Shown here in pieces: positions 13,555 through 47,290 of a DNA stretch of 49,104 nt. The notes below the pieces were generated by a model that saw only the letters and a list, made by a program, of their open reading frames with translations, did no database searches and was not told the DNA's origin. The position numbers and the translations under genes were made by a program. The stretch lies in IMG/VR virus record IMGVR_UViG_3300048088_000079, positions 1 through 49,104 of that record, one strand, 5' to 3'. This DNA is from a virus. Numbering within the stretch: the first letter of the stretch is position 1; every line of letters begins with the position of its first letter.

Positions 13555-13929
13555 ATCTTTTGCTTGTTCATGTATCGACAGAAAAACAACGCCGCTCGGG
13601 AAATTCGAGACGTGCTGACCGCGCCGCATTTCGATGCTGTCGACTTGCTCATCATCGAGCCATACGCGGCACTTGGTGAGTGCATCACAAAATATTTTTT
13701 CACGATTGCACAAGTCCCATTTTTTACCAGCGAGCTTCTCGGGCGGGCAGAAGACGATCGAGACGTGCAGTCGCCCTTCGAGCGGTTCGACGTGGCCTGT
13801 CGGCAGCGCATTGGAAACCTGAAGTGCATACTTGCGCCCTTCTTCGGACAGCACGACGCGCCCGGACACGGCCCGATAGATGCGATTGAGTGACGGCGGC
13901 CAGGGCAACGTGAGATTTAGTTTTTTCAT
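13540..13929 (-). CDS. rusA: RusA-family Holliday junction resolvase
   Basis: A 129-residue protein with start ATG at 13929, in ATGA overlap with the methyltransferase stop. LTLPWPPSLNRIYR is the RusA N-terminal signature and CDALTKCRVWLDDEQVDSI the C-terminal acidic block. In E. coli RusA the metal site includes the DLDN motif; here the matching stretch reads WDLCN, so the second Asp is Cys, while the following Lys is kept (NREK). The enzyme would resolve branched DNA before packaging. The substitution may affect metal binding. Confidence 0.85.
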   Translation of the reverse strand: MKKLNLTLPWPPSLNRIYRAVSGRVVLSEEGRKYALQVSNALPTGHVEPLEGRLHVSIVFCPPEKLAGKKWDLCNREKIFCDALTKCRVWLDDEQVDSIEMRRGQHVSNFPSGVVFLSIHEQAKDLTIA

Positions 13930-14834
13930 TTCAGACATTCCATCATTGTTTCGCACCAGACCCGCGCCGCTTCGGCGTTGATCGCGTTACCGTAGGCGCG
14001 CAGACGTCCCACTCGGGAGGTAGCCCCATCAGCCAGCGGGAATGTGCCGGGTTCAACTGCCCGCCACTTTTCGTCCCGGCAGAGCAGCCAGTCAGCATCT
14101 CGCCAGAAGCCGTTAATCGGGCCGACTGGTTCGTGGGCAGCGTCTCCGTAGGGTGCGGGGTTCGGCCCGCCATGAAGGCTGCGCTGCGATGGTTGTGCAG
14201 CGTCGTAGGGGTTGCCCAACTCGCCAGCGTCGGCCAACTCGCCAGCATTGCGAAGTCGTTCAGATTTGACCCGTGCCGCGTCTCGCCCATTGCGCGCTTC
14301 GCCTGTCCGCCGCCCGTCGAGTCTGAAGTCTGCGGCGTGGGCCATGAAGTAGGTTCGGTCGCGGATGTGCGGAGCACCGACGCCCGCAGACGGGAAAGCG
14401 AGCGCCCCGAAGGCATAATCCATTGCTTCCATGTCAGTTTGAACAAGGTCGAGCCAAGGCTCCGCGTCTTTGCTTGCAACTTGCTCGCCAGTGACAACTG
14501 CAGGTCGGCACTCCTCGATGAGGAAGTGGAAAGCGGGCCACAAATGCCGCTCGTCAGCAAACCCATTCCCCGCGCCTGCCGCGCTGAAAGGTTGACAAGG
14601 GCACGAACCCGTCCAGATTTCGCGATCGTCGGGCCATCCGGCGAGACGTAAGGCGTAGGACCAGACGCCGATTCCGGCGAAGAAATGACACTGTGTGTAT
14701 CCAACAAGGTCTGATGCAGGGACATCCTCGATACTCCTTTCGTCAACGTCGCCCGGCGCGATGTAGCCTGCAGCTATGAGATTGCGCAGCCATTGCGCCG
14801 CGAACGGGTCTATCTCGTTGTAATAGGCCGTCAT
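13926..14834 (-). CDS. DNA (cytosine-5) methyltransferase
   Basis: A 302-residue protein; ATG at 14834 was chosen because upstream codons overlap the SSB gene and are arginine-rich. Motif I is [14 protein letters not shown]; motif IV is GSCPCQPFS with catalytic Cys80; the motif VI equivalent is GEQV in place of ENV; motif VIII is [15 protein letters not shown]; motif X is [12 protein letters not shown]. The recognition region between VIII and X is short and low in complexity. It would methylate phage DNA, probably against host restriction. No partner endonuclease is seen nearby, so it is an orphan methylase. Confidence 0.9.
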
Positions 14835-14851
14835 TGTATTTATAGATGAAA

Positions 14852-14872
14852 CAGCCCGCGCGAGGCGGGCTG
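14852..14872 (-). terminator. Stem-loop terminator after the SSB gene
   Basis: CAGCCCGC and GCGGGCTG form an 8-bp stem with a 5-base loop. On the minus strand it is followed by TTTCATC, only a weak T-run. It lies after both SSB stop codons (zero frame at 14922 and -1 frame at 14881). Confidence 0.55.
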
Positions 14873-14878
14873 ATGGGG

Positions 14879-14974
14879 CTAGAACGGTATATCGTCGTCG
14901 TACCAGTCGTCGCCGATAGTTACGCTTGCTGTGCGAACGGATTCGCGTTTGCCGGCGGGCGCTGCGCGAAAGGG
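14879..14974 (-). other. Possible -1 frameshift region giving SSB a DDDIPF tail
   Basis: The slippery heptamer C CCT TTC lies at 14974-14968 in the zero frame of the SSB gene. After a -1 shift the frame is open for 29 codons to a TAG at 14881-14879 and ends IGDDWYDDDIPF, the classical SSB C-terminal tip. Without the shift, translation stops at 14922. TTCGCG and CGCGAA arms just after the site could form a stem. The frameshifted product would have 244 residues. A one-base deletion or assembly error is the alternative. Confidence 0.55.
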
Positions 14975-15612
14975 TCGGCACTCGCCGCAGGTGCGGCCGT
15001 CTGCGTCGCACCGAACGGGTTACCTTGCTGCACCGGTGCGCTGGCTTCTTGCGCATTTGCGCCCGGTTGAATGGCCGGCGCTGCGTTCGGATTCGCGTAT
15101 TTCTGGAAGGCGTTGACCGTCGCGCCGCCGCCGATGTTCAGGCGCTCGCCTGCTTCGCCTGCGTCCATGATGCCGTCGGGGTTGAACGAAATGCCGTGCT
15201 TGCCCTTGAATTCCCACGTGAAAGCATTCAGCGCGGCGCGCACGCGCTTACCGGCGTAGAACGTTTGACGAATCATCGTCTCGCCCATTTGCGAGCCTTG
15301 CGCGAGTTGCGCGCCTGCGGCGTCGGCAAGGTACGGCGGGAATTGCGTCGCGGCGCGGACAATCAGCCAGTCGCCCGGAATGCCTGCGATCGGCTTCGAC
15401 GTGTGCTGATTTTGCTTCACGCTGTGCTCGTACTTCGAGACGTCGCCGCCAGCGGCAACGGACGTCATGAGCGCGAACAGATCAGCGCCAGCGGCCGGCG
15501 GGAAAGCGAGCACGGCGTAGTATTCGAGCTTGCCGCCCTTCATTTTGTTCGGCGTTGCCTGCGCGAGCGAGTGCGAGGCGAGGATTGCGACGTGTTCGGC
15601 GATTTGAGACAT
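14920..15612 (-). CDS. Single-stranded DNA-binding protein (DUF2815-like)
   Basis: A 230-residue zero-frame product. Residues about 1-165 resemble the phage SSB family DUF2815 (FPPAAGADLFALMTSVAA, VRAATQFPPYLADAAG, RQTFYAGKRVRAALNAFTWEF, GISFNPDGIMDAGE). From about 170 the protein is a disordered linker with NPF, DPF and NPF repeats ending NPFAQQA. The acidic tip typical of SSBs is missing in this frame but present in the -1 frame downstream. It would coat single-stranded DNA and recruit replication partners. AAAGG lies 7 bases before the ATG. Confidence 0.75.
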   Translation of the reverse strand: MSQIAEHVAILASHSLAQATPNKMKGGKLEYYAVLAFPPAAGADLFALMTSVAAGGDVSKYEHSVKQNQHTSKPIAGIPGDWLIVRAATQFPPYLADAAGAQLAQGSQMGETMIRQTFYAGKRVRAALNAFTWEFKGKHGISFNPDGIMDAGEAGERLNIGGGATVNAFQKYANPNAAPAIQPGANAQEASAPVQQGNPFGATQTAAPAASADPFAQRPPANANPFAQQA

Positions 15613-15726: not shown

Positions 15727-15755
15727 ACTTTAAGGATTAGCTAAAACAAAGTCAA
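15727..15755 (-). promoter_or_regulatory. Sigma70-type promoter, TTGACT-17-TAAAGT (leftward)
   Basis: On the minus strand TTGACT is at 15755-15750, spacer 17 bp, TAAAGT at 15732-15727. It overlaps the last codons of the PAPS-reductase-like gene and would give the SSB gene a separate, strong transcript, which suits a protein needed in quantity. Confidence 0.7.
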
Positions 15756-16951
15756 GCACTTTCTTTCTGACCTTTCTTCATTTCGAGATAGCGGCCGTAT
15801 GCTTCGCTTTTAGGCTGCGTCATGCCGAGCCCTTTGCACCAGTGATCGTTGCGCAGCAGCACTTTGCACATACGACGCCAGGACGGAGCCCAATGTTTGT
15901 CCTCTAGCACCTTCGGCGCTTCATCGGGTATGGTGGCATAACCCCGCGTGCGCCAACCCTTCATAAACGACCGGAACCGAGAAATGTAATGCTCGCGCGT
16001 CTTTTCTGGCATCGACTGCAACAACAGATTGCAGAACGATTTCCAGGTGTGCCCGTCGGGCTTGCTGATCTTGTTGTAGCCGGTCATGTTGCCGGTTTCA
16101 TTGATGTACAGCGCGCCCGAATTCGCACCATTGACGCGCGCAATCAGTTTGAACCAGGTGTCGGGCTCGAGAATGTGATAAAGCCACAGTCCACGCCGTT
16201 GATCATCTCCATACGGCTGGCAAAGTCGCTGCTGGTGAATACTGACACCGGCCTTTTGCATCTGATCATAAATTTCATTGTGAGGAAGCTCGGGGAATCG
16301 TGCGTGAAATCGCCAGATGTCTTCGGTGCGCCAATCGTAGATGGGGTAGACATTGTAAAGCTCCTCGTCAATCTTCGTTGTAAAGCGTTTCCCTTGAAAC
16401 GTCTCTTTGGTGAAAACCGCAATCGTGCGGAATCGGTTCAGACTCTCGTCGGCGCGGATGCCAACGAAACCGGCCGTGCGCGCGCCGCCGGCATACCACA
16501 AACCCCAAGCGATCGTTAGTTCTTCGAACTCCATGCCCGGCACGAACCAGGGGTAATCGCGTTCGGTCTTCGCGCACTTCGGCATATCGCGGACCCAAAT
16601 GTCTTTCCTCGCAGGGTCCCAGCACATCCAGCGCGGCTCGAAGTGCGTTACGGCATTGCGCAGCAGCAGCGGCACACAGACCCAATGCAGGTCGATGTTA
16701 TCCGCGTACAACTCCGCCATTTGCTCGACGTGCGCGATCGTCGCCTTGTACTGCGCTTCGAGATCGATCACGAGCACGCCGACAGTGCGCCCGCGCCGCT
16801 TCGCTTCGTCGAGCACCAAGTGCAGCATGACGGAGCTATCCTTGCCGCCGCTGAACGACACGTACACTTTTTCGAAGTTGTCGAAGGTGTACGCGATGCG
16901 TTCGCGCGCGGCCGTCAGTACGTCTGTCTCGTTATATTTCTTCAGTTTCAT
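15752..16951 (-). CDS. PAPS reductase-family protein, IbrA-like
   Basis: A 399-residue protein. SFSGGKDSSVMLHLVL (residues 32-47) is the PP-loop of N-type ATP pyrophosphatases/PAPS reductases. Later blocks (PWFVPGMEFEELTIAWGLWY, GIRADESLNRFR, YPIYDWRTEDIWRF, NEIYDQM) match the IbrA/DUF3440 layout. Cys and Trp residues cluster in RWMCWDPARKDIW. It follows a ParB-like gene by 5 bases, the IbrB-IbrA order. Related PP-loop proteins carry sulfur chemistry (DndC, sulfate reduction), but the reaction of IbrA-type proteins is not established. Confidence 0.8.
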   Translation of the reverse strand: MKLKKYNETDVLTAARERIAYTFDNFEKVYVSFSGGKDSSVMLHLVLDEAKRRGRTVGVLVIDLEAQYKATIAHVEQMAELYADNIDLHWVCVPLLLRNAVTHFEPRWMCWDPARKDIWVRDMPKCAKTERDYPWFVPGMEFEELTIAWGLWYAGGARTAGFVGIRADESLNRFRTIAVFTKETFQGKRFTTKIDEELYNVYPIYDWRTEDIWRFHARFPELPHNEIYDQMQKAGVSIHQQRLCQPYGDDQRRGLWLYHILEPDTWFKLIARVNGANSGALYINETGNMTGYNKISKPDGHTWKSFCNLLLQSMPEKTREHYISRFRSFMKGWRTRGYATIPDEAPKVLEDKHWAPSWRRMCKVLLRNDHWCKGLGMTQPKSEAYGRYLEMKKGQKESA

Positions 16952-16956
16952 AGCAT

Positions 16957-18075
16957 TCAGTAGAGGTTAGCTTCAGTCTTGGATTGGACGTCGCCCATTG
17001 TCAGTTCGCTGCGCCCATTGAGCGCGCGCCAGAAGTTTAAAGCCCGCAACGCCGCTTCGTCCGCTAGTTTTTGTTGATCGGGAGTGAGAAGGTTATAGCC
17101 TCCGCGAAACGTCGACGGGATGCCGTGCGCGACACACAATGCAGCTTGTCCGAGCCACGCGATACGATTCATGCGTTCGTTCGTCAAGTAATGCTCGCAA
17201 CTCTTTTCCCAGGTGAGCACGACTGTTGACAATGCCGCTTCAAATGCAGGAATGTCTGCAAGCAGCTTGCGATATGTCTCTTCGCAATCCTCGCGCGTCA
17301 TACCTTCCGGCGGGTGATCGTTGTAGAAGCCCGCCGGATAGCATTCCCAATGCTCAAACGTGTGCAGAATACGGCCGGGCTCTAGTTCGGGCGTGGCCGT
17401 ACCGTCTTCTTCTGCGAGCGGCACGAATGCCTCTTCGAAGTGTTCCACGTCCCAGGACTTTGAGAACTCCTGATCGGCGAACAGTTCACTCAGGCCGCTG
17501 ATTTGGCAAAGGCGCAAAACTTCGTCGGCATCCATACCGAGATTCTTCGCGATCTTGTTATCCGTCCAGTTCCGGCGCTTCAGTTCGATCACGATGTCCG
17601 ACATTGCCGTGACGGCGTGCTTGCCGCGCGCGCGATTGTGGCGCACGGTTGACGCCATGCGATCGGCCTTGTCCTTGCACTCTTCTTTAATCATCACGCA
17701 CGGCAGGTAGCCTCTGACGCGCTGCTGAATGTCGGGCATCTCCTTGCCGACGCGGTGACGGTGGAAACCGTCGATCACTTCGTGTTGCCCGTCGCCGTCT
17801 GGCATCGCAACGATCGGCTGCGTGTAGCCGTCTGCTTCAATCGACAGGCGCAGCAATTCCATTTCCGGCGGCGCGACGCTGTTCGGATTGTAGTCATTCG
17901 CATAGACCGTCGTGTTTTTGACCCACTTCACGAAGTCGACTGGTTCGGTCTTAAACGGCGAAATTTCGTGCAGCGCGGCGCGCACGGCGTTGAGCGACTC
18001 GACAAGGCTGTCGAGGTCGGAAGTGTCCAGGAGTGCAACTTGCGAAACAATGCTTTGCGTGATCTGTTCGTTCAT
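16957..18075 (-). CDS. ParB-like nuclease-domain protein, IbrB-like
   Basis: A 372-residue protein; ATG at 18075 preferred over an upstream TTG. The ParB/sulfiredoxin core is at about residues 55-150 (VYANDYNPNSVAPPEMELLRLSI, QPIVAMPDG, HEVIDGFHRHRVGKEM). A helix-turn-helix-like part follows (NWTDNKIAKNLGMDADEVLRLCQISG). The C-terminal part is specific to this type (WDVEHFEEAFVPL, FEHWECYPAGFYNDHPPEGM). It is paired with the IbrA-like gene 5 bases downstream. The two probably work together, in DNA modification or gene control; this is inference. Confidence 0.75.
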   Translation of the reverse strand: MNEQITQSIVSQVALLDTSDLDSLVESLNAVRAALHEISPFKTEPVDFVKWVKNTTVYANDYNPNSVAPPEMELLRLSIEADGYTQPIVAMPDGDGQHEVIDGFHRHRVGKEMPDIQQRVRGYLPCVMIKEECKDKADRMASTVRHNRARGKHAVTAMSDIVIELKRRNWTDNKIAKNLGMDADEVLRLCQISGLSELFADQEFSKSWDVEHFEEAFVPLAEEDGTATPELEPGRILHTFEHWECYPAGFYNDHPPEGMTREDCEETYRKLLADIPAFEAALSTVVLTWEKSCEHYLTNERMNRIAWLGQAALCVAHGIPSTFRGGYNLLTPDQQKLADEAALRALNFWRALNGRSELTMGDVQSKTEANLY

Positions 18076-18091
18076 GGTAGCCAAAAGGTTT

Positions 18092-18134: not shown

Positions 18135-19322
18135 TCAAGCTTTCTTCGCGAACTTGGCGAAAGTTTCAGCAAGTACGTGCGGCTGATCGCCGTCGACGGC
18201 GACGATCGTGCGTGCACCCTTCGAGCGCTTGACGAGCGCGGCGCGCAATTCGGCCGGCAGGTGCGGCAGTGCCTCGCTGATCGCGACCGGCGCGAGCAAG
18301 TCGTGCCGGTTCATCGCGAGCAGGTAGAGCGCGGCATTCCTCGGATCGGCCCACATTTGCCGACCTTCGCTCACCTTCACAGTGAATTTCGGCGAGCCCG
18401 TCGCGACCATCTTTTCAACACGCTCTTCGATGTCTTCCCAAAAAGCCTTAAAAGCGGTCCTAGAAGCCCACAATTGCGCTACTAGGTCGTCAGGTATTGT
18501 CCGAAGGTCAACAAGCCCGCCATGCGCCTGTATTGCCGCGGAAACGGCATTGTGCGTCTGAGGGCACTTCGTCTTCCCTTTGCAATAGCGGCAGTGATCG
18601 CCAGATTTGACGTTTTGCGCGGCGTCCGGCGCGTCAACGGCCGCAGTTTCGTCGCGCAGCTTCAGGCGTTCGCGCTGCAGCCATTCGGCCGGCAGGTCGA
18701 GCGGCTTCGCGGGCTCGCCGGGCAAGCGCGGTTGGTAGACCGCGACGCGCATTGCGAGCGGCGGTTCCGGCAGCTTTTCAGCAGCGGCGACGAGATACGC
18801 GGACAATTGCGGGTTCGTGTCGTTGACGGTGCCGATCGCGACGAAGCCGAAGCCGTACTTGTAATCGATCACGATCAGCAGGCGCAGGCGCGGAATCCAG
18901 ACGACACAATCGGCCGTGCCGAACAGGTTCGGGTGGAGCGACGGAATCGAGACTTTCAGTTCGAGCATGATGAATGCCTCGGCGGGCGTCGCGCCGACTG
19001 CGACGATTTGCTCTGCGATGAAACGCGCGTAGTTCATGCCGTGCGTGCGCAAATCGTCATTCCACTGTTCGAGCGTCTGCCCTTGCGGGTCGAAGCCTTC
19101 CGGGAAGTGCTGCAGCGGGGCAACGCCGGGCTGCGCGCCGTCCAAGTTGAACGCCTGGCGAGCGTAGAACTCGGCGACCGTGTGGGCGCAGGTGCCTTCG
19201 GCGGCAGCCGGCCCGCTGCTGTCGGGCATGCCTTCGGAAAGATGCACGGACGCAGGGCACGCGGCCCACCTTTCGCGCCCGGAAAACGACAATTTCGAGT
19301 GAATCACGACGGGATTCGACAT
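18135..19322 (-). CDS. DUF2800 / Cas4-RecB-like PD-(D/E)XK exonuclease
   Basis: A 395-residue protein. SFSGRERWAACPASVHLSEGMPD and AAAEGTCAHTVAEFYA are the family N-terminal signatures. LFGTADCVVW and LLIVIDYKYGFG supply the nuclease D...DYK residues. HCRYCKGKTKC (about residues 245-255) with an upstream Cys forms the probable iron-sulfur or zinc cluster of Cas4-like enzymes. It is expected to process DNA ends during replication or recombination. First gene of the leftward arm, directly next to the 142-bp module. GAGG lies 8 bases before the ATG. Confidence 0.85.
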   Translation of the reverse strand: MSNPVVIHSKLSFSGRERWAACPASVHLSEGMPDSSGPAAAEGTCAHTVAEFYARQAFNLDGAQPGVAPLQHFPEGFDPQGQTLEQWNDDLRTHGMNYARFIAEQIVAVGATPAEAFIMLELKVSIPSLHPNLFGTADCVVWIPRLRLLIVIDYKYGFGFVAIGTVNDTNPQLSAYLVAAAEKLPEPPLAMRVAVYQPRLPGEPAKPLDLPAEWLQRERLKLRDETAAVDAPDAAQNVKSGDHCRYCKGKTKCPQTHNAVSAAIQAHGGLVDLRTIPDDLVAQLWASRTAFKAFWEDIEERVEKMVATGSPKFTVKVSEGRQMWADPRNAALYLLAMNRHDLLAPVAISEALPHLPAELRAALVKRSKGARTIVAVDGDQPHVLAETFAKFAKKA

Positions 19323-19354: not shown

Positions 19355-19385
19355 ATCTTAGCGCAAGTCTTGCAGAATGTGCAAG
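19355..19385 (-). promoter_or_regulatory. Candidate leftward promoter with TTGCAC palindrome
   Basis: On the minus strand TTGCAC (19384-19379), 18-bp spacer and TAAGAT (19360-19355) form a candidate promoter for the DUF2800 gene. The inverted pair CTTGCA-N5-TGCAAG (19369-19385) covers its -35 end. Similar half-sites lie on the other side of the 142-bp module. Confidence 0.45.
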
Positions 19386-19409: not shown

Positions 19410-19551
19410 GTACTGGGGTACTGAGTACGGAACAGAACTTTGGGTTAGCCCTTATATCGCTGCGTTTATATTAAATACCTCTATTTAATCTCTTTTCATT
19501 CCCAAGTAGCCTCTATATAAAATACTCCAGTCAGTACCTTAGTCCACAGTA
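19410..19551. repeat. 142-bp AT-rich divergent control module, copy 1
   Basis: Identical to 46696-46837 at 140 of 142 positions (differences at 19424 and 19432), without gaps. It sits between the leftward DUF2800 arm and the rightward replication arm. The ends carry GGTACTG (19409-19415 and 19417-19423) facing CAGTACC (19532-19538), plus CAGTAC (19547-19552). The core holds two near-identical boxes, TATATTAAATAC (19467-19478) and TATATAAAATAC (19514-19525), and CCTCTATTTAA/CCTCTATATAA 32 bp apart. No consensus -35 is visible. Candidate functions: bidirectional promoter, factor-binding site, or replication origin. Confidence 0.9.
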
Positions 19552-19565
19552 CGCCGTGACGAAAC

Positions 19566-19594
19566 TTGTGCAACTTGCACAAATTGTGTATCTT
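19566..19594 (+). promoter_or_regulatory. Operator-like palindrome over a candidate rightward promoter
   Basis: TTGTGCAA-C-TTGCACAA (19566-19582) is a perfect 8-bp inverted repeat. TTGTGC (19566-19571), 17-bp spacer and TATCTT (19589-19594) form a candidate promoter for the 19620 gene, so a protein bound to the palindrome would cover the -35 box. A further CTTGCAC half-site lies at 19592-19598. Confidence 0.55.
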
Positions 19595-20060: not shown

Positions 20061-22556
20061 ATGACAAAGATTAAATTTACGCAGATCACATCGACTGACT
20101 GCGAACTGACGAAGACATTTTCACGGGACGCGCACGGCAACATCGAAAGCACGGCAATCGCACACATGACGCAGGGCGTCGCGCGCGTCGTCGAGATTGA
20201 TCACGTCGGACAACTTTGTTCTTTGCTGCCGTTGCTGCAGCCGAATCAGGCGATCACCTGCGGCGTACCCTATGCGGGCGATACGCCGCTCACGACGCGC
20301 GCCGGCGCGGAAGTGCGCTCCGATGCAGTCGCACGAACGAACGAGTCTTTTACCTTTCCGAACGGCCCCACGCTCTTTCCGATCGACATCGATGTCGACG
20401 ACAAGCACGCACGCTTTGCGACCGTGCAAGACGCACTCGATGCGCTCGAAGACTGTCATCCATGGATGCGCGCACTGCATCGCGTCGCGCGCCCTTCGTC
20501 GTCGTCGTATGTCGCCGGGCGCGGCCTGCGCGGCGTGCATGTCTATTTCGCCGTGACGGCAGGCAGCGACATCAAAGCGCTTGCCGATCGCGTGCAGATC
20601 GAGCAATGGGCTAAAAACAAAGGCTGGATCAAAATTTCAAAATCTGGCGCGTTGCTTGTGCGTCAGATTAGCGATGCACTCGTATATCAACCCTCGCGCC
20701 TGATGTTCGAATCGAGTCCTGTGCTTAAGGGCGTCGAGCGCGAAATTCCGATCGATCAGCATTTCGTCGAACGTGGCCCCGACGGCGGGCGCGGCCGGCC
20801 GTATAACTACGTTGTTGACGGCGTGCTCGACGCCGGCGCAATGCCGAAAGTGCGTGAGATTGAATCGCGGCGCTTTCATACCGCCGTGCGCGACGCGCGC
20901 AACGCGCAACGCAAGCAGGCAAAAGCGATAGCCTTGAACTATCAGAAAGAGCAGGCCATCGCGAGCGGCTACGATGCAGTCGAAGGCGAACGACGCGGCC
21001 TGATGGCTATTCGCGCGCTCGGCGATGAAAAGCTTCCGACTGATTGGGCGCTGTTCATCAAGGACATCGGCGTTCAGACCGTGCGCCAGGTGATCGACGC
21101 ACTGCCGGCGTCGCTCGGGCATCAATGCGCCGACCCGTTCGATTCATGGCGCGATGACCTGACGCCCGCACACTGCACGAAGGCCGAGATTGTGATGCAG
21201 GGCGACAAGGTCGGCGTGTGGTCGCACAAGCTGCAACGCTTCTTTGAATTCACAGAAGACGCTGCAGCAAACATCGCCTCGCCGCTGGATCAGGCCGCTG
21301 AACGCCTGGCGGGCTGCGTCGAGTATCCTGAGCCCATGAGCAAGCGCGGCCCGACTGAGCGCAATCTGACGATGGCTATGCGCCTTTTGCTCGAAGCGAT
21401 CGATTGCATGCCGCGCACGGACGCGACGACCGGACGGCGCGAAGTGAGTGACGAATTGCCGTCAATGATCGCGCTGCAGGATGCCGCGTCACACATTGGC
21501 TGCATCGGCGTAAGCATCGACGCAATCGAGAAAGTCATGAAAAACATGGCTAAAACGAACACTTTAGACCCGTGGAAGGACAAAATTGCGACTATTCCGA
21601 AATGGGACGGCGTGCCGCGTCTCGACACATTCTTTCAAGACAATATGGGCTCGTTGCCGTGCGACGCGCTCGTGCTGACAGGTCAATTGCTGTTCGCCGG
21701 GGTCATCATGCGCCAGTTGCAGCCGGGCGCGCAGTGTCCCGTCGTGCCGGTGCTGATCGGCGCGGGCAAGCTTGGCAAGACGCGATTCGTGCATCAACTC
21801 GCCGAACTGCTCGACTTCCCGCGCCCGGCCGCCGTGACGTTCGGCGATTCGATCAAAATGTGTCAGGCCGCGTGCGTGTCGCCGATCGCGGAACTCGCCG
21901 AAATGTCGGGCCTGAGCAAGCGCGATAACGAAGACGTCAAGACGTGGATCACAGATACCGAAGACGTCTATCGCGCGCCGTATGGCGAATACGCTGAGCG
22001 CCACTTACGCCGGTTCGTTTGCATTGGCACATCGAACAAATACGAATTGAACCGTGACGCGACTGGCGAGCGCCGCTTGTTTCCCGTGTTCGTGAATCAA
22101 GAAATTCTGCCTGCCTGGCGCGCTGAAGGGCTGCAGGTGTTCGCCGAAGCGCGCGAGCGCTTCTGTCGTGACCTGGACGTTTATCTGAAGCTCGTCGACG
22201 ACTGCGCCGGGGCGGTGAAGGAATACAACGACGCGGCCATGCTGCGCGGCGAGGGTACGCCGGCGTCCGACCTGGATGATTTGATGCCGCCTATCCTGCG
22301 CACGTTGACCGCACAGAGCGGCAAACGCCGCGTGATGTCGGGCGAGGTGCGCAAGGCGCTCGATGCGTCGCCGAGCGGGCGCACCTTCCGTGCGCAGCAA
22401 ATCGCGGCGTGGCTCAAGACGCGCGGCTGGGAAAGGAAGGTCGACGGGCACGGTTACCCGATGTACATTGCGCCGAAAGAATATGTTGACGAAGACGAGA
22501 CAAATGTTTTACCATTCGTCAATAATCCGTTTAACAGCAAAGAGGCGATAGCATGA
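20061..22556 (+). CDS. Primase-polymerase / VapE-type helicase fusion
   Basis: An 831-residue protein. The N-terminal half has archaeo-eukaryotic primase features: DIDVDD (about 109-114) as the metal motif and GRGLRGVHVYF as the downstream block. The C-terminal half is a VirE/VapE-type P-loop ATPase with GAGKLGKTRFVHQL (Walker A near residue 570), AELAEMSGLSKRDNEDVKTW, YRAPYGEYAERHLRRFVCIGTSN and DATGERRLFPV. It would prime and unwind DNA at the fork. Largest gene of the rightward replication arm; overlaps the next gene by 4 bases. No Shine-Dalgarno is obvious. Confidence 0.85.
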   Translation: MTKIKFTQITSTDCELTKTFSRDAHGNIESTAIAHMTQGVARVVEIDHVGQLCSLLPLLQPNQAITCGVPYAGDTPLTTRAGAEVRSDAVARTNESFTFPNGPTLFPIDIDVDDKHARFATVQDALDALEDCHPWMRALHRVARPSSSSYVAGRGLRGVHVYFAVTAGSDIKALADRVQIEQWAKNKGWIKISKSGALLVRQISDALVYQPSRLMFESSPVLKGVEREIPIDQHFVERGPDGGRGRPYNYVVDGVLDAGAMPKVREIESRRFHTAVRDARNAQRKQAKAIALNYQKEQAIASGYDAVEGERRGLMAIRALGDEKLPTDWALFIKDIGVQTVRQVIDALPASLGHQCADPFDSWRDDLTPAHCTKAEIVMQGDKVGVWSHKLQRFFEFTEDAAANIASPLDQAAERLAGCVEYPEPMSKRGPTERNLTMAMRLLLEAIDCMPRTDATTGRREVSDELPSMIALQDAASHIGCIGVSIDAIEKVMKNMAKTNTLDPWKDKIATIPKWDGVPRLDTFFQDNMGSLPCDALVLTGQLLFAGVIMRQLQPGAQCPVVPVLIGAGKLGKTRFVHQLAELLDFPRPAAVTFGDSIKMCQAACVSPIAELAEMSGLSKRDNEDVKTWITDTEDVYRAPYGEYAERHLRRFVCIGTSNKYELNRDATGERRLFPVFVNQEILPAWRAEGLQVFAEARERFCRDLDVYLKLVDDCAGAVKEYNDAAMLRGEGTPASDLDDLMPPILRTLTAQSGKRRVMSGEVRKALDASPSGRTFRAQQIAAWLKTRGWERKVDGHGYPMYIAPKEYVDEDETNVLPFVNNPFNSKEAIA

Positions 22557-44590: not shown

Positions 44591-46134
44591 AATGCCGCGC
44601 TCCTGAGAATTTCGTTTGTGATTAGCGACCCGATAGGCGAGCGCAGACATAGCTGGTGTAAAGCCAATGTCATGCAGTCTACCGTATCGTCGTGCTGTAC
44701 GTCAGGGAAAGACGTGATTTCCGATACCCATTGGGCGATGCCTGGCGCTTCCTCGGGATGCGGCAGCATGACCGCGTTGTTGCTCCACATCCACGAAACG
44801 GCATGAGCCCGCGCCTCTTTCGAACCCATAGGCGGCACACCTTCGAGCCCGGCAAAGTGTTTCTTGAGCATATCGACGAGCGCCGCGCCGTTTGCCGCCT
44901 CTTCGATGTAAATGCGCGAAATGTGCGGGTGCTTGCGGCGCAGATCGGCGATCGCCTGCGCGGTTGCCATGAACGCGAGACGTTCGCGCCGGTAATCGAT
45001 CAACCACACGCGTTCGTCGGGCGCTTGCGACTTTCCCCACACGCCGCACGCAACGAAGTCGGACGCCCCGCCATCTTTAAACGTCGCGTCGACGCTCATG
45101 ATCACGCGCTGAAAGTGCACGGGCAAATCGGCGCGCCGGTAATGCTGCAGGTTTGCGCGCGGGAAAATTGCGCCCAAATCCGCAAGCGGCGATTGCTGGT
45201 ACATCGCGGCCCACCACAGCAGCGCAATATGCCGCTTGATGTCGCGCAGCTTCGTTTCGCTGTGCAGGTGCGGTACGAGTGCGCCTTCCGGCAAGTCGGG
45301 GTTATAGCCTACATCGTTCGGATCGTTAAGCGCGGGGAACGAGAGCAGCGTGAAATTCGCGTCCGTGCCGTACGTCTTTTTGACGTGCGCAAGCAAGTCC
45401 TGCGCCGACCATGGCGTGCCGATGATGACTTGCCCGGAACGCTGTTGCAGACGCGTCAGGAACACGGAGTCATACCAGTCGCGATTGCGCGCCTGCACGA
45501 CTTCGGATAGCGCTTCCTGCGCGTTCTTCACGGCATCGTCGATGATGCCGACGTCGACCGAAAAACCCGTAAGAGAGCCGCCGATGCCGACGCCCTTTAG
45601 CCAACCGTCGCCCGGCACCTGCAGGCCGTCGGACGCGTTATCGATGCCGTTAAAGCCGATCAGCGTCGTCGCGGGGAAGATCGCCCGATAAATCGGCTCG
45701 CGCATGATCGACTGCGCATCGCGTCGATTGCGCTGCGCGAGCGAGTGCGCGTAGCTCGCGCTCGCGATGCGCACCGCCGGCAATTGGCCCGTCAGCCGGC
45801 CGAACAGGTACGGCGGCAAGCAGCGCGCGATCAGCGACGACTTACCATGTTGGGGCGGCGCGGTGAGCACGAGCACGGGGCGTTTGCCTTCGATCACGTC
45901 GTCAACGAACTTGTCGACGGCGCGGCATACGCTCGCGGAAAACGCCGAATGCGAATAACGCGGCCGATGCACGGCGGCAACGAACGCGGCGAAGTTGGTA
46001 CGCGCAGACTGGATCAGAAACTCGACCGGGCCGATTTGCGCGGTCGCTGTCGTGTACGAAGGGTCCGCAGACGTGCGTACAGCCTCACGGTGCCCTTCGT
46101 ACAGGTCATTTGATGCCGACGTAGTCTGATTCAT
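44587..46134 (-). CDS. Terminase large subunit
   Basis: A 515-residue protein. The ATPase has Walker A APPQHGKSSL and Walker B VGIIDDAV; the coupling segment is QVIIGTPWSAQDLLAH. Nuclease acidic residues are in IMSVDATFKDG, IYIEEAANGAALVDML and HDDTVDCMTLALHQL. It packages DNA into proheads. It overlaps both the small subunit and portal genes by four bases. Confidence 0.9.
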   Translation of the reverse strand: MNQTTSASNDLYEGHREAVRTSADPSYTTATAQIGPVEFLIQSARTNFAAFVAAVHRPRYSHSAFSASVCRAVDKFVDDVIEGKRPVLVLTAPPQHGKSSLIARCLPPYLFGRLTGQLPAVRIASASYAHSLAQRNRRDAQSIMREPIYRAIFPATTLIGFNGIDNASDGLQVPGDGWLKGVGIGGSLTGFSVDVGIIDDAVKNAQEALSEVVQARNRDWYDSVFLTRLQQRSGQVIIGTPWSAQDLLAHVKKTYGTDANFTLLSFPALNDPNDVGYNPDLPEGALVPHLHSETKLRDIKRHIALLWWAAMYQQSPLADLGAIFPRANLQHYRRADLPVHFQRVIMSVDATFKDGGASDFVACGVWGKSQAPDERVWLIDYRRERLAFMATAQAIADLRRKHPHISRIYIEEAANGAALVDMLKKHFAGLEGVPPMGSKEARAHAVSWMWSNNAVMLPHPEEAPGIAQWVSEITSFPDVQHDDTVDCMTLALHQLCLRSPIGSLITNEILRSAAL

Positions 46135-46628
46135 TTCGGGCCGTCCAGAAGGCCCATTTGCGCCATTTCCTTCAATTGCTCAACGTAGGCGTCACGTTGC
46201 TCGTTCGACAAGGTTTCGACGATCGACGAAGCATTGGCGATTTCGACAATTGCCTTGTCGAAGCCGAGCAGCTTCACGAGCATCGCGAAGGCTTTGTCTT
46301 TCGAGCGCACCTTCGGGATGATTTGCCCTTGCTTGTACTCGAAACCCTCGATCAGCCGACCGAACCGGTACGTCTTTAATTTCGTCGTGTCGAGCACGAA
46401 GCGCTCGATCGCGCCGACGCCGCCGCACGTCGCGCACGTCTGCAGCGTGCCGTCGTCGATCACTGCGCCCTCTCGCGCCTCGCCGCCCACGACGCCCCGC
46501 CCGTGACAATCCGGGCAAGTCACGCAGGTAACTTGCAACAGGTCCGCCAGGTTGATGTTGATCAACTCGACTAGATCGGCAATGAGGGAAGCCTTGACGG
46601 GCTGGAGGGCATATTCCATGCGCGCCAT
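46131..46628 (-). CDS. Terminase small subunit with DnaJ-type zinc motif
   Basis: A 165-residue protein directly upstream of the large subunit. It has CVTCPDCHGRG and CATCGGVG, two CxxCxGxG knuckles like the DnaJ zinc finger, separated by about 25 residues. A central SKDKAFAMLVKLLGFDKAIVEI and a helical C-terminus follow. No Shine-Dalgarno before the ATG at 46628; an in-frame ATG at 46619 is an alternative. It would recognise the packaging site; assignment rests on position and on zinc-type TerS proteins in other phages. Confidence 0.7.
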   Translation of the reverse strand: MARMEYALQPVKASLIADLVELININLADLLQVTCVTCPDCHGRGVVGGEAREGAVIDDGTLQTCATCGGVGAIERFVLDTTKLKTYRFGRLIEGFEYKQGQIIPKVRSKDKAFAMLVKLLGFDKAIVEIANASSIVETLSNEQRDAYVEQLKEMAQMGLLDGPK

Positions 46629-46665
46629 CTTAACGTAATTGAGCGGTGCTAGTCGATAGCCGCAA

Positions 46666-46695: not shown

Positions 46696-46837
46696 GTACT
46701 GGGGTACTGTGTACGGAGCAGAACTTTGGGTTAGCCCTTATATCGCTGCGTTTATATTAAATACCTCTATTTAATCTCTTTTCATTCCCAAGTAGCCTCT
46801 ATATAAAATACTCCAGTCAGTACCTTAGTCCACAGTA
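46696..46837. repeat. 142-bp AT-rich divergent control module, copy 2
   Basis: Matches 19410-19551 at 140 of 142 positions. It lies between the terminase arm (leftward) and the baseplate arm (rightward). Here the flanks lack TTGCAC palindromes; instead GCTTGC (46682-46687) and GCAAGC (46841-46846) bracket it. Its position next to the small terminase gene also allows a packaging-site role. Confidence 0.9.
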
Positions 46838-46864: not shown

Positions 46865-46893
46865 TTGCCCGGCGTTCGAACGTCGGCTATCAT
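46865..46893 (+). promoter_or_regulatory. Candidate rightward promoter TTGCCC-17-TATCAT with palindrome
   Basis: TTGCCC at 46865-46870, 17-bp spacer, TATCAT at 46888-46893. The spacer contains the 10-bp palindrome CGTTCGAACG (46872-46881). The -10 box lies only 7 bases before the ATG at 46901, so a transcript from here would be leaderless or nearly so. Confidence 0.5.
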
Positions 46894-46900
46894 TGCGCGC

Positions 46901-47290
46901 ATGGATACCCTCGCCCTTGATTTCTCTACCGGCTCACCTGACCTGACCGTCGACCAATACGGAAATTGGGCGACGTTCGGTGACGCGACGCCCGGTGACT
47001 TGACCGGCCCCGGCATGCGACTGGCTCAAGACGTCGCGACTCGCTGCATGGCCTGGCGCGGCGAGGTGTATTACGACACGACGCAGGGCGTGCGCTACGA
47101 GACAATTCTTGGCTATCCGCCAAATCTCGCGCTCATGAATAACGCTTTCAGCACGGAAGCGCTGAAGGTGCCGCTGTGTCAGACGGCAATCGCTAACTTC
47201 GACTTCACGGCGGGTTCGTCGCGCAAAGTCGGCGGCACGATCACGGTTTCCGACATCAACGGCACGAGCGGCAGCGTGCAGATCACATGA
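46901..47290 (+). CDS. Baseplate wedge protein, gp25/W-like
   Basis: A 129-residue protein. MDTLALDFSTGSPDLTVDQ, then GDLTGPGMRLAQDVATRCMAW and GEVYYDTTQGVRYETILG fit the small gp25/gpW-like wedge proteins of contractile tails. ATG at 46901 is preferred because conserved sequence begins there; GTG 46850 and ATG 46859 are in-frame alternatives. No Shine-Dalgarno. First gene of the rightward structural arm; overlaps the next by 4 bases. Confidence 0.65.
   Translation: MDTLALDFSTGSPDLTVDQYGNWATFGDATPGDLTGPGMRLAQDVATRCMAWRGEVYYDTTQGVRYETILGYPPNLALMNNAFSTEALKVPLCQTAIANFDFTAGSSRKVGGTITVSDINGTSGSVQIT

Follow-up and report, generated by a model that had tools for sequence, protein, structure and literature searches.

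The two divergent gene junctions of the phage genome analysed here carry copies of one non-coding module of 142 bp, and a repeat pair occupies the same two junctions in every one of the 32 genomes of the family that we compared. Sequence comparisons indicate that the modules evolve in concert, being near identical within a genome and rewritten between phages. On balance we favour the view that these copies represent two matched replication origins of the PICI/iteron type, homogenised by recombination, at which half of the genome seems to have been inverted in the course of evolution.

The window (the whole stretch of 49,104 nt) is a circular contig whose ends overlap by 127 bp. To judge from its genes, it comes from a soil myophage of the Bcep781-like (Naesvirus-related) group: its DNA polymerase is 67-70% identical to those of Burkholderia phages Bcep1, Bcep781, Bcep43 and BcepNY3, and about 60% identical to those of Xanthomonas phages such as KPhi1, phiXaf18 and XapPhi1. 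It shares the size of the group (about 46-49 kb), the four clusters on alternate strands and the head, tail and replication homologs, with family-wide homologs of its genes about 30-80% identical. The strands of conserved genes define four arms, separated by two divergent junctions (19322/19620 and 46628/46901) and two points of convergence (around 10.2 kb and 30 kb), as in the published account of the Bcep781 group (PMC2771037). At the first divergent junction an exonuclease gene (18135-19322, minus strand; phrog_69) opens the leftward arm, opposite the arm containing the gene for a VapE-type primase-helicase (20061-22556, plus strand). At the second, the head arm begins with a gene upstream of TerL (46131-46628, minus strand; phrog_16968, unknown function), which we infer to be TerS from its position beside TerL, and the tail arm with a baseplate wedge gene (BPW; 46901-47290, plus strand; phrog_120). 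The protein encoded at the TerS position carries a zinc motif of the DnaJ type (CXXCXGXG) that is conserved across 26 aligned sequences, and its family is annotated as anti-TRAP or TerS in Xanthomonas phages. The leftward arm also contains a C5 cytosine methylase gene (13926-15056, minus strand), present in few of the relatives compared, and a PAPS-reductase/DUF3440 gene next to a weakly ParB_N-like gene (15752-18084, minus strand). The latter two, which resemble the IbrA/IbrB (YbdN/YbdM) pair of E. coli, are missing from most relatives compared and are thus probably accessory cargo.

Copy 1 of the module spans positions 19410 to 19551, in the exonuclease/primase junction, and copy 2 positions 46696 to 46837, in the TerS/BPW junction. 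Direct comparison bore out what an earlier note on this DNA had reported: the two align over 142 bp with no gaps and two mismatches, at 19424 (A/T) and 19432 (A/G), and, as the strands of the conserved genes confirm, they occupy both of the genome's divergent junctions, next to the point where each of the four arms begins. The copies are in direct orientation, identity ends abruptly at both edges, and their GC content is 39%, against 60% genome-wide. Apart from the overlap of the contig ends, the window has no other long repeat. The possibility, raised in the earlier note, that one copy was created by assembly can be rejected as unlikely, since both copies are present in an independent contig (G001; 48,773 bp), which stems from a nearly identical phage of a different metagenome, and in all complete relatives. 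Contig G001 (L072-L074) itself begins and ends within the module, as expected where a repeat breaks assembly; its apparent circular overlap is therefore repeat sequence and no proof of closure. A DNA search of phage records with the module as query gave no match, because modules diverge faster than genes. Repeated intergenic modules are not described in the papers on KPhi1, phiXaf18, the Xap and Xhv phages or in PMC2771037; an earlier mention in the Bcep781 genome paper (J Bacteriol 2006) is possible.

To characterize the junctions across the family, we mapped the genes for TerS, exonuclease and primase and the first gene of the baseplate in isolates and metagenomic relatives, and then compared the two intergenic regions between divergent genes within each genome. 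The set consists of the window and 31 near-complete relatives with both junctions. Thirty of the 32 pairs are 89-99% identical over 79-431 bp (100% in XapPhi3, over the short stretch available); the weakest are those of G013 (82%) and G002 (70%). The pair is direct in 24 of the genomes; eight have inverted copies (phiXaf18, KPhi1, BsXeu269p/3, G003, G004, G015, G016 and G018). The primase gene borders a module in all of them, and TerS always adjoins one copy, whichever of two gene orders the genome has. This last association would be expected of a packaging (pac) site duplicated by chance and then homogenised, and the relative phiXaf18 is reported to be circularly permuted, with headful packaging (PMC7163016). 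We nevertheless regard a pac site as highly improbable, since it does not account for a second copy always being kept at the distant, other divergent junction.

Comparison between phages gave a very different picture. While the two modules of one genome are 92-99% alike in most cases, those of different genera are only 43-58% alike, which is near alignment noise. Unrelated sequence at both junctions of relatives was an outcome that, according to the earlier note, would have spoken against the element; literally this is what is seen from phage to phage, yet within each relative these two junctions carry modules that match each other. Concerted sites, at which the two copies within each phage agree but the two phages differ, number 42-164 per comparison, against 0-1 sites supporting orthology. 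Close strains show a mixed signal, the Bcep and Xap phages retaining copy-specific differences and G010, G011 and G012 already having concerted sites. The pattern from strain to genus is the time course expected of recurrent gene conversion. Thus, of the causes of near identity proposed in the earlier note, gene conversion proved right, whereas strong purifying selection on one fixed sequence is rejected by the low similarity between genera.

The internal organization of the module is suggestive of its function. Copy 1 starts with GTACTG at 19410 and again at 19418 (19410-19423, plus strand; 8-bp spacing), faced by CAGTACC at 19532-19538 on the minus strand; a further CAGTAC at 19547 extends beyond the repeat edge. 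In copy 2 the corresponding elements lie at 46696 and 46704 (46696-46709, plus strand) and at 46818-46824 (minus strand). The facing GGTACTG/CAGTACC ends had been noted before, and within the window they are confined to the two modules. So are the twin TATATwAAATAC boxes of the AT-rich core, at 19467 and 19514 in copy 1 (19467-19525) and at 46753 and 46800 in copy 2 (46753-46811), whose presence had been correctly reported; their arrangement needs correction, as both boxes of each copy are in tandem on the plus strand and do not face each other.

Relatives share this design with other words. Their modules are quasi-palindromic, with facing sets of phage-specific iterons of about 8 bp on either side of an AT-rich core that contains TATATA boxes. 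In about a dozen relatives a word of 7-9 bp peculiar to the phage is found in tandem on the left of the module and reversed on its right: ATCCCACC in G002, ACAGACGA in G018, CCTCCGTAC in G010, ACTGACG in L120, and others elsewhere. Where iterons are clear, the words are nearly confined to the modules; the Bcep1 iteron, TGACAGA, occurs seven times in one junction and 14 times genome-wide. The gap between the inner copies of the facing sets varies little, from 93 to 132 bp in the 13 modules where it could be measured, and is 108 bp in the window. A core common to the iteron words of relatives, ACNGANG, ranks first among 1020 patterns of the same shape in the modules (72 observed, 11 expected; shuffle-controlled), a shape that was picked after viewing the words. 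It is missing from the module of the window, whose variant, GTACTG, makes a weaker set: two copies on the left and one clear copy on the right, with AT-rich DNA between them. Clear iterons were not found in the modules of G003, G004 and Xhv2.

Two facing iteron sets flanking an AT-rich region are the layout of PICI replication origins (PMC6092414). The statement that no phage element of this form had been described was therefore too strong, and the "origin pair", one of several functions listed in the earlier note, has become the best supported. The layout is clear in the dozen or so relatives and weaker in the window. As in PICIs and SaPIs (PMC6092414), iterons differ between elements, and a VapE-type helicase/primase is encoded beside one copy. 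There are also differences: the PICI origin is single and lies immediately 3' of the initiator gene, whereas the modules described here are double, one lying 5' of the primase gene and the other at the second junction; furthermore, they are carried by a lytic myophage, not a satellite, and lie between divergent promoters.

PICI initiators are Rep/primase proteins, and the primase-helicase beside copy 1 is a candidate for the cognate one. It has a VapE-like domain (PF05272, E 8e-36), falls among the primases in phrog, and its only PDB sequence match is the VapE protein 7pds_A (E 4e-36), which we take to be a SaPI-type Rep. Near the primase C-terminus, phages with TGAC iterons have in common the deletion of one residue, among other changes. 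Of 14 alignment columns that fully separate TGAC-iteron from ACNGA-iteron phages, five lie in a stretch of 52 of the 844 columns near the C-terminus (p about 1e-3), in a comparison of few, related lineages with classes drawn after viewing the data. This association is suggestive of a cognate initiator; a putative winged helix at the C-terminus was recognised by eye.

Under the origin model, a phage protein, most likely this primase-helicase, would bind both facing iteron sets and melt the AT-rich core that they enclose, in the manner of Rep at PICI/SaPI origins. One initiator would serve both origins, so that both would have to follow any shift in its specificity. During replication, recombination between the copies would convert one into the other, and the phage has genes for an exonuclease, an Enc34-like ssDNA-binding candidate, RusA and a helicase. 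A crossover between inverted copies would invert the segment between the modules, giving two gene orders, and host-type promoters of the four arms would lie in the unique flanks, outside the modules. GC skew has no turning point at the modules, an uninformative result since arms and putative forks would be co-directional.

In the earlier note the module had been thought to launch the four arms itself. Scans for sigma70-like -35/-10 pairs on both strands found none inside it, in agreement with the note's remark that it lacks a sigma70 -35, and simple sigma70 promoters within the module are thus rejected. The clearest match in the window, from the scan around copy 2, lies outside, at 46865-46893 (TTGCCC-17-TATCAT, plus strand), ahead of the baseplate/tail arm; its TATCAT hexamer is 13 nt from the baseplate start codon, so that the transcript is probably leaderless. 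The other candidates, also in the flanks, are a weak -10 for the TerS/head arm (TACGTT, 46632-46637, minus strand), with a spacing to the ATG (-9) poorer than in relatives, and two sites proposed from their match to the consensus: a -10 for the exonuclease arm (TAAGAT, 19355-19360, minus strand) and a promoter with a weak -35 for the primase arm (TTGTGC-17-TATCTT, 19566-19594, plus strand). Family-wide, 18 of 24 TerS and 23 of 26 baseplate upstream regions have a TANNNT hexamer at a distance of 12 or 13 nt from the start codon (95% maximum in shuffles, 3), a position that suggests leaderless transcripts for both arms. Exonuclease genes lack a hexamer there, and some have a candidate near -38. 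In phiXaf18 (L088, 77-562) and other Xanthomonas relatives a TACACT hexamer falls inside the first codons from the TerS start used, so that the true leaderless start is probably slightly downstream.

The position of these hexamers, outside the module and at variable distance from it, makes it probable that the element is not itself the promoter. A promoter could still be envisaged if the twin TATATA boxes were read outward both ways by a phage-modified RNA polymerase or a phage sigma factor: CTATAT is present in 24 of 29 module or junction sequences, no sigma70-like -35 accompanies it inside the module, and gp60 of Xaf18 is annotated with a sigma70 region 4 domain. We consider this unlikely, as the two boxes of the window point the same way, the TerS and baseplate starts have -10-like hexamers of their own, and AT-rich boxes would be equally expected in a melting region.

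Somewhat more credible, though still improbable in our judgement, is that the module is a shared upstream activating sequence, with a phage activator on the iterons recruiting host RNA polymerase to the -10s of all four arms and coupling their timing. The module does lie upstream of all four arm promoters, its phage-specific sites are largely confined to the two copies, and 61-67 nt separate the iterons of the window from the -10 candidates of TerS and BPW. However, across the family the distance from iteron to hexamer varies from 35 to 338 nt, and no helical phasing of iterons to promoters was found, in contrast with the tight spacing between the iteron sets; and Pfam scans of window genes, covering part of the genome, recognised no family-conserved regulator. 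A conserved 230-aa protein (14920-15612) was considered as regulator and rejected, its only, weak Pfam match being a phage ssDNA-binding protein. An enhancer that tolerates distance to its promoters is possible, but tight spacing of the two sets combined with loose promoter spacing fits a self-contained origin better than an activator site.

A pair of origins would have parallels in other phages. Two separated iteron regions, ori and crr, are served by the alpha primase-helicase in phage P4, as proposed here for the modules; unlike the modules, the P4 regions are separated by a few kb and do not occupy divergent junctions. The two origins of SPP1 are not known to be near-identical copies kept alike by conversion; moreover, oriL lies within the initiator's own coding sequence, and the initiator is of another family than the VapE-type primase. 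Under the origin model, SPP1 oriL/oriR are a precedent in that one protein, G38P, binds two distant sites in a phage with recombination-dependent replication (PMC3485210).

The two gene orders correspond to an inversion of the segment between the modules. Order A (TerS/exonuclease and baseplate/primase), which is that of Bcep781, accounts for 23 genomes, with all isolates among them; order B (TerS/baseplate and exonuclease/primase) in nine, the window and eight others, all metagenomic. As a misassembly flip needs inverted copies, the order called in direct-copy genomes cannot be an assembly flip, and such genomes occur in both orders (Bcep, Xap and Xhv phages in A; the window, G010 and G014 in B). 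The published order of the eight inverted-copy genomes may be arbitrary. The primase tree calls for at least two changes of order, a single change being allowed by none of 200 bootstrap trees, whereas a quick TerL tree did not force more than one change; either tree could be misled by recombination among phages. Several modules can be aligned with their own reverse complement for most of their extent, and an in-place flip of one quasi-palindromic module is a plausible route from inverted to direct copies.

In herpesviruses, a duplicated lytic origin is associated with divergent promoters, and recombination of inverted copies flips a genome segment. We tentatively propose, as a less than even prospect, that in the inverted-copy phages (8 of 32) the half genome between the modules flips in replication, which would alter replication of the circle and leave two gene-order isomers side by side in one population, as happens with herpesviruses or the yeast 2-micron plasmid. 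Herpesviruses are unrelated viruses, and for the phages co-existing isomers are only a proposal; if it holds, published linear maps give one form of two.

In conclusion, the modules provide a clear example of concerted evolution in a non-coding viral element, and the pair would offer a way for large inversions to arise in phages that are otherwise syntenic. The origin model would provide a testable origin and initiator for the whole phage family, therapy and biocontrol isolates included.
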